DNA of 64,000 bases from Motilimonas eburnea. GTDB taxonomy: Bacteria; Pseudomonadota; Gammaproteobacteria; Enterobacterales; CBDFNC01. The stretch is taken from positions 124,001 to 188,000 of the forward strand of contig NZ_JAIMJB010000002.1 of assembly GCF_021295345.1 (NCBI RefSeq). Reading direction: 5' to 3'. Position numbers and translations under genes: made by a program. Below are positions 18,491-19,337 of the stretch, piece by piece. The number at the start of each line of letters is the position of its first letter. The first letter of the stretch is position 1. Under the pieces are notes generated by a model. The model saw only the letters and a list, made by a program, of their open reading frames with translations. It was not told the DNA's origin and made no database searches.

Positions 18491-18575
18491 TGGTTGCGGG
18501 AGCCGGATTTGAATTAATGCCCTTTGTGATTTTTAGAGAGTTGAGCCCGACGAGCTACCAGATTAAGGCGTTGAA
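18491..18575 (-). ncRNA. Degenerate tRNA-like element 1 (distal)
   Basis: The 3' end GGCTCCCGCAACCA and TTCAAATCC match tRNA-fMet, and TCTGGTAGCTCGTCGGGCTCA matches its D arm, but the anticodon arm is replaced by AACTCTCTAAAAATCAC. It is the most diverged of four such elements, and its first hairpin is weakest (only short pairing left). Probably a pseudo-tRNA at the end of the transcript. Confidence 0.55.
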
Positions 18576-18611
18576 GAAAGGATACTTGAGATATTATATG
18601 AAACTGAGAAT

Positions 18612-18688
18612 TGGTTGCGGGAGCCGGATTTGAACCAACGACCTTCGGGTTATGAGCCCGACGAGCTACCAGACTGCTCCATCCCGCG
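18612..18688 (-). tRNA. tRNA-fMet (CAT), initiator
   Basis: On the minus strand it starts CGCGGGATGGAGCAG and ends with encoded CCA. The C1-A72 mismatch and the GGG-CTCATAA-CCC anticodon arm identify the initiator tRNA. 77 bases; identical to the copies at 19034 and 19261. It is the last of four in the array. Confidence 0.95.
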
Positions 18689-18726
18689 ACTGGATTTTTT
18701 GAAACTATATGATGTGGTGTAGAAAT

Positions 18727-18808
18727 TGGTTGCGGGAGCTGGATTTGAACCAACGACCTTCGCAATTATTAAGAGTTGAGCCCGACGAGCTACACTCTCA
18801 AACACCAA
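18727..18808 (-). ncRNA. Degenerate tRNA-like element 2
   Basis: The 3' half is tRNA-fMet-like (T arm, CTCCCGCAACCA), but the anticodon arm is replaced by ACTCTTAATAATTGC and the 5' half reads TTGGTGTTTGAGAGTG. TTGAGAGT pairs with ACTCTTAA (positions 18794-18801 and 18769-18776), with one G-U pair that is valid only in minus-strand RNA. Not a standard tRNA. Either a pseudogene or a processed spacer RNA. Confidence 0.6.
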
Positions 18809-18811
18809 AAT

Positions 18812-18888
18812 TGGTTGCGGGAGCTGGATTTGAACCAACGACCTTCGGGTTATGAGCCCGACGAGCTACCAAGCTGCTCCATCCCGCG
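18812..18888 (-). tRNA. tRNA-fMet (CAT), initiator, variant copy
   Basis: Same anticodon arm and C1-A72 mismatch as the other copies. It differs at the D loop (AGCTTGG instead of AGTCTGG) and has CCAGC instead of CCGGC in the T stem, which turns a T-G pair into T-A. Looks functional. Confidence 0.94.
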
Positions 18889-18949
18889 ACTGTATTTCTA
18901 TATTTTGCATTACATTGATAGACACTTCTTTTATAGAATCTAACAAAAT

Positions 18950-19031
18950 TGGTTGCTCAGTCTGGATATAAACCAGCGACCTTCGCGTTTATTAAGAGTT
19001 GAGCCCGACGAGCTACACTCTTAAACACCAA
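18950..19031 (-). ncRNA. Degenerate tRNA-like element 3
   Basis: TTAAGAGT (19017-19024) and ACTCTTAA (18992-18999) pair perfectly around the fMet-like D arm AGCTCGTCGGGCT. The T-arm stem is CTGG/CCAG and the 3' end is GAGCAACCA. It cannot fold as a normal tRNA because the anticodon arm is lost. One of the three best-conserved copies. Confidence 0.6.
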
Positions 19032-19033
19032 AT

Positions 19034-19110
19034 TGGTTGCGGGAGCCGGATTTGAACCAACGACCTTCGGGTTATGAGCCCGACGAGCTACCAGACTGCT
19101 CCATCCCGCG
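19034..19110 (-). tRNA. tRNA-fMet (CAT), initiator
   Basis: Identical in 77 bases to the copies at 18612 and 19261, with C1-A72, three G-C pairs in the anticodon stem and encoded CCA. Followed on the minus strand within two bases by tRNA-like element 3. Confidence 0.95.
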
Positions 19111-19173
19111 ACTGTATAATGCTACTTAGAGGATACCATTGCTAACTAGGATAATTTACATCTTAATTAAAAT

Positions 19174-19258
19174 TGGTTGCTGGACATGGTTTTTAAACCA
19201 ACGACCTTCGCATTAATAAAGAGTTGAGCCCAACGAGCTACAAGTTCTTTAAAACCAA
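19174..19258 (-). ncRNA. Degenerate tRNA-like element 4
   Basis: The first stem has changed in sequence but not in pairing: TAAAGA (19246-19251) with TCTTTA (19217-19222). The T-arm analogue TGGTTT/AAACCA is a perfect hairpin although its bases differ from fMet. The 3' end GCAACCA is kept. Lies directly after the first tRNA-fMet of the transcript. Confidence 0.6.
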
Positions 19259-19260
19259 GT

Positions 19261-19337
19261 TGGTTGCGGGAGCCGGATTTGAACCAACGACCTTCGGGTT
19301 ATGAGCCCGACGAGCTACCAGACTGCTCCATCCCGCG
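19261..19337 (-). tRNA. tRNA-fMet (CAT), initiator, promoter-proximal
   Basis: The first tRNA of the minus-strand array, 77 bases with CAT anticodon, C1-A72 mismatch, three G-C anticodon-stem pairs and encoded CCA. A promoter candidate lies about 20 bases upstream. Confidence 0.95.

Follow-up and report, generated by a model that had tools for sequence, protein, structure and literature searches.

We analyzed a 64,000-nucleotide (nt) stretch of Motilimonas eburnea contig NZ_JAIMJB010000002.1, here called the window, whose minus strand carries four genes for the initiator tRNA (tRNA-fMet) and, in alternation with them, four incomplete copies of that tRNA. Copies of this kind that lie directly 3' of a tRNA's CCA end show the conserved pairing expected of a structured RNA: paired changes occur above chance, and the two arms of a hairpin co-vary across four genera. 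An earlier note on this DNA had proposed that the elements keep a pairing and are not simply decaying, and this proposal was upheld for the hairpin. The explanation that we favor, to which we give a little less than an even chance, is that the elements are tRNA duplicates which have been disarmed, are transcribed, and are stopped from invading the working tRNA by a hairpin of their own.

Initiator tRNA genes interleaved with split copies

ARAGORN found the four tRNA-fMet genes at exactly the positions that had been claimed for them, and the tRNA-like element described after each gene was confirmed as a partial fMet copy (elements A to D). In the list, positions count from the window start, z compares the fold of the minus-strand RNA with shuffled sequences, and R1 is a covariance model of the hairpin class.

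19349..19384, minus strand: probable promoter for the complete array, by eye: TTGCAT and TACTAT, 17 nt apart, followed by the GC-rich TCGCCGC
19261..19337, minus strand: tRNA-fMet gene 1 (CAT anticodon), ARAGORN; Rfam tRNA 60.1 bits
19174..19260, minus strand: element A, partial fMet copy with a weak hairpin, from sequence; z -1.31; R1 41.8 bits; left arm TAAAGA 19251-19246; right arm TCTTTA 19222-19217; inner helix 19239-19235/19231-19227; CCA end at 19174
19034..19110, minus strand: tRNA-fMet gene 2, ARAGORN
18950..19033, minus strand: element B, from sequence; z -3.22; R1 58.3 bits; left arm TTAAGAGT 19024-19017; right arm ACTCTTAA 18999-18992; CCA end at 18950
18812..18888, minus strand: tRNA-fMet gene 3, ARAGORN
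18727..18811, minus strand: element C, from sequence; z -2.92; R1 57.9 bits; left arm TTGAGAGT 18801-18794; right arm ACTCTTAA 18776-18769; CCA end at 18727
18612..18688, minus strand: tRNA-fMet gene 4, ARAGORN
18491..18563, minus strand: element D, the 3' two thirds of fMet with anticodon-loop insertion ACTCTCTAAAAATCAC, from sequence; without left arm and without hairpin

Read 5' to 3', elements A to C consist of a left arm, a tRNA piece (GCTCGTCGGGCTC, or GCTCGTTGGGCTC in A), a right arm, GCGAAGGTCG, a T-arm remnant and CCA. The left arm replaces the 5' half of the tRNA and sits within the 20-22 nt that separate the CCA of the preceding tRNA from the tRNA piece, while the right arm is an (A/G)CTCTTTATAAAC-like insertion in the former anticodon loop; the inner AGCTC/GGGCT helix between them is tRNA-derived. 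The elements had been described as lacking an anticodon arm. The anticodon stem still has its 5' strand (TCGGGCTCA), after which the insertion comes; the arm is not cleanly missing. By our own numbering the anticodon is split between A35 and U36. Judged by an intact anticodon loop (CTCATAA) and a cloverleaf, the elements are not functional tRNA-fMet genes: the insertion splits the loop, and ARAGORN in the window and Rfam in 17000-21000 call only the four real genes.

As minus-strand RNA, elements B and C were each more stable than every one of 200 shuffles. Element A folded weakly (21 of 200 shuffles as good), and the stretch 18580-18491, which holds element D, formed no hairpin (z -0.02, 85 of 200 shuffles as good). 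The plus strand of A to C was less stable than the minus strand (z -1.98 for B, -0.99 for C and -0.98 for A). The arm pairs that had been proposed, TTAAGAGT/ACTCTTAA, TTGAGAGT/ACTCTTAA and TAAAGA/TCTTTA, are present in the window, with the reservation that D has no hairpin and that of A is weak.

The two arms of the hairpin co-vary

From both pattern searches described below we gathered 127 distinct elements; to be included, an element had to have the core GCTC..GGGCTC and a part resembling GAAGGTCG. Because the elements were selected on the core, its conservation is no finding. By a loose test 121 of the 127 also end CCA-type and 6 do not, and outside the core the usual form is CTCA, (A/G)CTCTTNATAA and CGAAGG, with variants. 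Two classes could be distinguished: hairpin copies directly 3' of a CCA end, and other copies that retain part of the tRNA 5' half or stand farther off, many of which lie, by eye, 3' of terminator-like hairpins.

We used an alignment-free test in which the left arm (CCA to tRNA piece) and 20 nt of right arm were allowed to form their best duplex and partners were then permuted. Among 86 elements (7 from Motilimonas, 26 from Psychromonas, 26 from Shewanella and 27 from genus g21, which is likely Vibrio), the duplex of an element's own arms was -9.64 kcal/mol, compared with -6.21 (standard deviation (sd) 0.28) for permuted partners, and none of 10,000 permutations was as good. This set was larger and cleaner than a first set of 37 copies (34 distinct arm pairs), in which the values were -8.66 and -6.13 (sd 0.34; 0 of 5,000), with -4.30 for shuffled left arms. 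When partners were permuted only within a genus, the number of permutations as good in 10,000 was 0 for Psychromonas, 0 for Shewanella, 42 for g21 and 188 for Motilimonas. Cross-genus duplexes had means of -3.8 to -7.2, versus -8.3 to -12.3 for own arms. As a control for relatedness, we kept one copy per left-arm cluster; the signal persisted with 21 representatives (0 of 20,000) and with 9 (p 0.0016). The left arms themselves are nearly as different across genera as shuffled sequences (10.5 versus 11.6 mean edits in 20), and right arms differ by 7.2.

The 82 copies of the other class, those not directly after CCA or with a 5' acceptor strand, showed no overall left-arm co-variation (510 of 5,000), with subsets that were borderline (214 and 314 of 5,000). 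Among 35 unique hairpin copies, 17 folded at z < -2.

An alignment fitted to the model, with 56 distinct rows, had 80.7% paired cells, compared with 77.2% after shuffling, and 22 double-changed cells compared with 10.3 (0 of 500 shuffles for each). The pair signal was weak in a plain MAFFT alignment (42 of 500) because left arms fall out of register there, and RNAalifold (A3) found the inner helix and nothing more; we therefore relied on the alignment-free test.

A paired change is also seen inside Motilimonas. R1 matched two elements in G001 and three in G003, genomes of the same genus, and all five carry ATAAGA/TCTTAT arms, as against TTAAGA/TCTTAA. In addition, G003 has by eye a decayed fourth copy. 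Absence from all close relatives, or a lack of conserved pairing in them, had been named as grounds for dropping the proposal. These grounds do not apply: the arms co-vary across four genera, and the elements occur in three of the four Motilimonas genomes examined, that of the window included. The note had pointed to Shewanella for related genomes; the genus is Motilimonas. At L028:452-551 (Motilimonas sp. E26) a run of N lies within the array, and the number of tRNA-copy units there may exceed the count.

A small G-U excess in the hairpin, and a decaying T arm

One change in the window had been read as a G-U pair valid only in minus-strand RNA. In 11 sequence groups of at least three members, G-U changes did outnumber A-C changes in the hairpin (8 to 3 change types in the inner helix and 20 to 15 in the outer), and the T stem showed the reverse (25 G-U versus 41 A-C cells). 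The G-U excess is small and no more than suggestive of selection on RNA rather than DNA. Set against this, 19 of 35 unique elements were more stable as the sense strand and 16 as the antisense strand.

The T-arm hairpin had likewise been thought to be kept by paired changes, and this failed as a general statement. Of the 127 elements, 27 lack a T arm of standard length, 39 have the stem of the host tRNA and 61 differ from it. Among 158 changed T-stem pairs, 20 were Watson-Crick, 25 G-U, 41 A-C and 72 another mismatch. As changed pairs are mostly broken, conservation of the T arm was rejected; it is decaying. In Shewanella loci L065, L066, L085, L095, L105, L054 and L070, the T loop of some copies holds an additional insertion, such as GCTTTTCA or CTTTATAAAAAG, that resembles the one in the anticodon loop.

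Matching arms protect the neighboring tRNA in folding calculations

We calculated equilibrium folding of naked RNA for tRNA-fMet joined to the element that follows it, and took the native-pair probability of the tRNA as the readout. Complete 77-nt tRNA-fMet genes precede 55 of the 86 elements. In 45 drawn from these 55, the tRNA alone scored 0.942 and the tRNA with its natural element 0.722. Shuffling the left arm reduced this to 0.499 and a left arm from another genus to 0.529, and the natural element was better in 42 of 45 cases each.

With all 55, the natural value was 0.720, compared with 0.534 for a foreign left arm (natural better in 50) and 0.544 for a foreign right arm (natural better in 48). 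Taking both arms from one foreign copy largely restored the value, to 0.682, and in 51 of 55 cases the double swap scored above the average of the two single ones. The expected number of tRNA-element pairs followed the same course, at 8.4 for the natural element, 17.2 with a foreign left arm and 9.2 with both arms swapped. When the same left arm was joined to the unaltered 3' part of the tRNA, the value was 0.473 (natural better in 43 of 55). The 60 nt downstream of the element, substituted for it, gave 0.740. Since the natural element comes close to that value and single foreign arms fall well below it, the copy appears to be about as harmless as other downstream sequence, given matching arms. 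The calculation offers a reason for the co-variation of the arms, not its proof.

Distribution and genomic setting

The 20-base pattern, made of the tRNA piece and the insertion, matched 48 stretches of one-per-species genomes. Two of these (L089 and L097) were set aside because they contain no tRNA and look like protein sequence. ARAGORN, run on 45 of the 48, found at least one tRNA-Met in 35; the other ten include the two set aside, and in seven of the remaining eight the element lies at most 400 bases from the stretch end. Matches include Shewanella, Parashewanella, Psychromonas, Motilimonas, Vreelandella and one Acinetobacter, as well as Marinobacterium, Neptuniibacter, Motiliproteus, Aliamphritea and Saccharospirillum of the Oceanospirillales. 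An order-wide search with at most one mismatch matched 28 of 394 genomes. A strict loop pattern matched 1 of 369 genomes in a class-wide draw, that of the window itself; the draw was sparse in the groups just named and the pattern strict, and the result says just that this exact form is rare.

Model R1 gave 109 matches in 45 sources at E <= 0.001, and none overlapped any of 103 ARAGORN tRNA-Met genes (38 sources with matches). It matched 16 of 24 Psychromonas genomes (11 of them above 55 bits), 23 of 117 Shewanella genomes (13 above 55 bits) and 17 of 148 genomes of g21; at E <= 1e-4 it matched 26 of 394 genomes of the order, in four families only. At lower scores R1 also picks up copies of the other class. 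Two split fMet copies with R1 matches (L091:2399-2489 and L108:4784-4874) are called tRNA-Leu(CAA) by ARAGORN and may have entered annotations as such.

The elements occupy loci of three kinds, namely next to rlmKL, ahead of rimP-nusA, and within an orn-queG array of tRNA-Gly and tRNA-fMet. The array adjoins rlmKL in Shewanella (L091 tested) and Motilimonas, and in the window both rlmKL and uup (NCBIfam). The gene order in Psychromonas L077 is secG, tRNA-Leu, tRNA-fMet, copy, rimP, nusA, and several further Psychromonas loci resemble it by eye; in g21 the order is orn (by eye), the tRNA-Gly/fMet array, queG.

In the window, the array is likely transcribed as one unit. Sequences like the probable promoter at 19349..19384 also precede, by eye, the arrays of G001, G002 and G003. 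A consensus scan does not list that site (19384-19349); it gave one promoter-like site upstream of the array (19428-19399; 2.3 expected by chance) and none between units. By eye, the unlisted site looks more like a tRNA promoter than the listed one does. No intrinsic terminator (a G+C-rich hairpin with a U run) was found on the minus strand in 18300-19700, and one terminator-like site lies on the plus strand at 19480-19496.

Several copies stood apart from the main set. One from Marinobacterium alkalitolerans (L094:6974-7048; R1 46.5 bits, duplex -13.3) has by eye a perfect arm pair of 8 base pairs, AGAGCTGA/TCAGCTCT; it lies outside the four main genera and was left out of the 86-element tests. 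By eye, units of a terminator-like hairpin and a split fMet copy, several of them in tandem, lie 3' of tRNA-fMet in L082 and L092 (Vreelandella), in L078, L064 and L090 (Oceanospirillales) and in L106 and L091 (Shewanella), a layout reminiscent of the tyrT tail repeats in E. coli. We also considered whether the insertion resembles a -10 box or the anti-Shine-Dalgarno sequence; on visual inspection neither likeness extends to every lineage.

Interpretation

In the explanation that we favor, the elements would be transcribed spacers in a polycistronic initiator-tRNA transcript. They would have originated as extra tRNA-fMet copies, put out of use when the anticodon loop gained its insertion. Left unprotected beside a real tRNA, a copy of the 3' two thirds could pair with the strands of the real one, and we propose that selection therefore kept a hairpin in the copy. 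The left arm, just 3' of the real tRNA's CCA, would pair with the insertion and close over the tRNA-derived AGCUC/GGGCU helix. The copy would then be folded up with itself, leaving the working tRNA able to fold correctly and be processed. The co-varying arms, the rescue by swapping both of them, the failure to keep the T stem (which was also copied) and the lack of a promoter- or terminator-like site between units all point this way.

Other results weigh against it. Element D has no hairpin and A only a weak one. The explanation gives no reason for the retention of copies over their deletion; G002 has five fMet genes in its array and zero copies. With only 3 cluster representatives the permutation test was not significant (p 0.17). 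The register of the model-fitted alignment is imperfect: sliding it by +1 yields 49 double changes, more than the 22 of the structure itself. Single-side changes in the outer helix comprise 15 A-C and 15 of other types versus 20 G-U, and many break the pair; nor does the near-equal stability of the two strands help. The right-arm sequence is alike even in the 82 other-class copies, where no left arm matches it, and the explanation does not account for this. Finally, the equilibrium calculation leaves out the order of transcription, in which the tRNA comes first and can fold first, and any hairpin would protect equally; the calculation is therefore one of sufficiency and not of selected function.

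Strand switching at the quasi-palindrome AGCTC-GTC-GGGCT could copy one arm onto the other and produce a match without any selection on RNA. The center of the element is indeed a tRNA-derived near palindrome, the two strands differ little in the stability of their folds, and within groups changes often break pairs, as if perfection were restored occasionally. However, right arms are more alike across genera than left arms, also where no left arm matches, which would require copying in one direction only, and the excess of G-U over A-C, present in the hairpin and absent from the T stem, hints at constraint on RNA. We regard strand switching as rather unlikely. By analogy with the leuZ spacer of E. 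coli, tRNA processing might instead release the elements as stable regulatory RNAs of 70-110 nt, sponges or titrators, which the hairpin would stabilize and in which the right arm would be the interaction site. Right arms resemble one another from Oceanospirillales to Shewanella, also in copies whose left arm does not match, the Psychromonas L077 element is placed between tRNA-fMet and rimP-nusA, and a tRNA-transcript spacer with sponge function is already described (PMC8166272, PMC5222698). Yet left arms show no sequence conservation, pairing in the hairpin form leaves the right arm not free to bind, and according to a figure legend stable internal spacer fragments had not been reported (PMC8166272). 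Such release seems to us unlikely.

A role as a processing signal we consider quite improbable. Here the hairpin a few nt after CCA, with an AU-rich single-stranded linker, would set the entry of RNase E and block 3' exonucleases, which would ensure correct trimming of the CCA end. Of the 86 elements, 71 have ATTT, CATT, ATCT, AATT or ACTT immediately after CCA, and RNase E cleavage just 3' of tRNAs is described (PMC5222698); but the element-free tRNA-fMet genes of Motilimonas (five in G002 and the second in G001) start alike after ACCA and have no such hairpin. The insertion lies in the anticodon loop, which integrases use in tRNA genes, and the elements might be remnants of mobile-element attachment sites in tRNA-fMet. 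We find this very improbable indeed. No matching record covered 80% of a Shewanella element (0 of 13 plasmid and 0 of 2 phage records) or of the window unit (0 of 457 plasmid records), four pattern matches in IMG/VR were one conserved stretch without tRNA, and tRNA sequence is retained on both sides of the insertion. An origin from a mobile element or attachment site was rejected, as no matching phage or plasmid record contains most of an element.

If tRNA protection is the selected effect, the elements would offer a clear example, open to testing, of how misfolding within polycistronic tRNA transcripts is selected against. Tandem duplication of tRNA genes is common and the fate of failed copies is seldom asked about; here several lineages share one solution, a self-folding copy whose arms differ yet match. 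If the spacer is released, initiator tRNA would gain an associated RNA family, one that in Psychromonas is also linked to the rimP-nusA operon. That the elements form a previously undescribed structured-RNA family, derived from initiator-tRNA copies with a split anticodon, present in several mostly marine gammaproteobacterial genera and acting on translation initiation, is a doubtful proposition; such a family might set the amount of initiator-tRNA maturation or pair in trans through the conserved right arm.

Relation to known systems

We found no description of such an element in the open-access literature by title or start of abstract, a scope that leaves out most subscription papers, older work on tRNA clusters included. 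The rtT RNA (RF00391) of the E. coli tyrT operon consists of repeats beside a tRNA gene that derive from the tRNA's own 3' part. Our 127 elements likewise repeat the 3' part of the neighboring tRNA beside it, a likeness of kind and not of family, and some other-class copies of Shewanella and Oceanospirillales are, by eye, tandem units separated by a terminator-like hairpin, as in rtT. They differ in that another tRNA is involved and that the copied core is refolded as a hairpin with co-varying arms in several genera and loci. The rtT model had no match in 17000-21000 at E <= 1, nor in four related loci at its gathering score.

The 3' external transcribed spacer (3'ETS) of leuZ sponges RyhB and RybB, and RNase E cuts 15 nt after the tRNA (PMC8166272, PMC5222698). 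Like the leuZ 3'ETS, the elements are spacers of a putative tRNA transcript directly 3' of a CCA end, but they derive from tRNA copies and are interleaved between tRNAs. The tRNA-Other of Bacillus cereus and other pseudo-tRNAs are tRNA relics outside translation that were possibly recruited (PMC3399842). Our elements resemble that description as tRNA relics with no role in translation that may have been recruited; what sets them apart from it is the insertion that splits the anticodon and the replaced 5' half. Giroux and colleagues reportedly described in 1988 tRNA-like repeats in a tRNA-Pro/His cluster of Photobacterium phosphoreum. That cluster reportedly also has tandem tRNAs with tRNA-like remnants in marine gammaproteobacteria, but involves tRNAs other than fMet. 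The accessible part of the account of Psychromonas ingrahamii gives 86 tRNA genes and has nothing on these elements (PMC2405808).

About 1.1 kilobases past the end of the array in the window lies a probable group II intron. The plus-strand stretch 15990-17388 holds a group II intron reverse transcriptase/maturase (TIGR04416, 354.7 bits) and, after it at 17314-17388, a group II intron match with a score of 38.6, just below the Rfam gathering score of 40.
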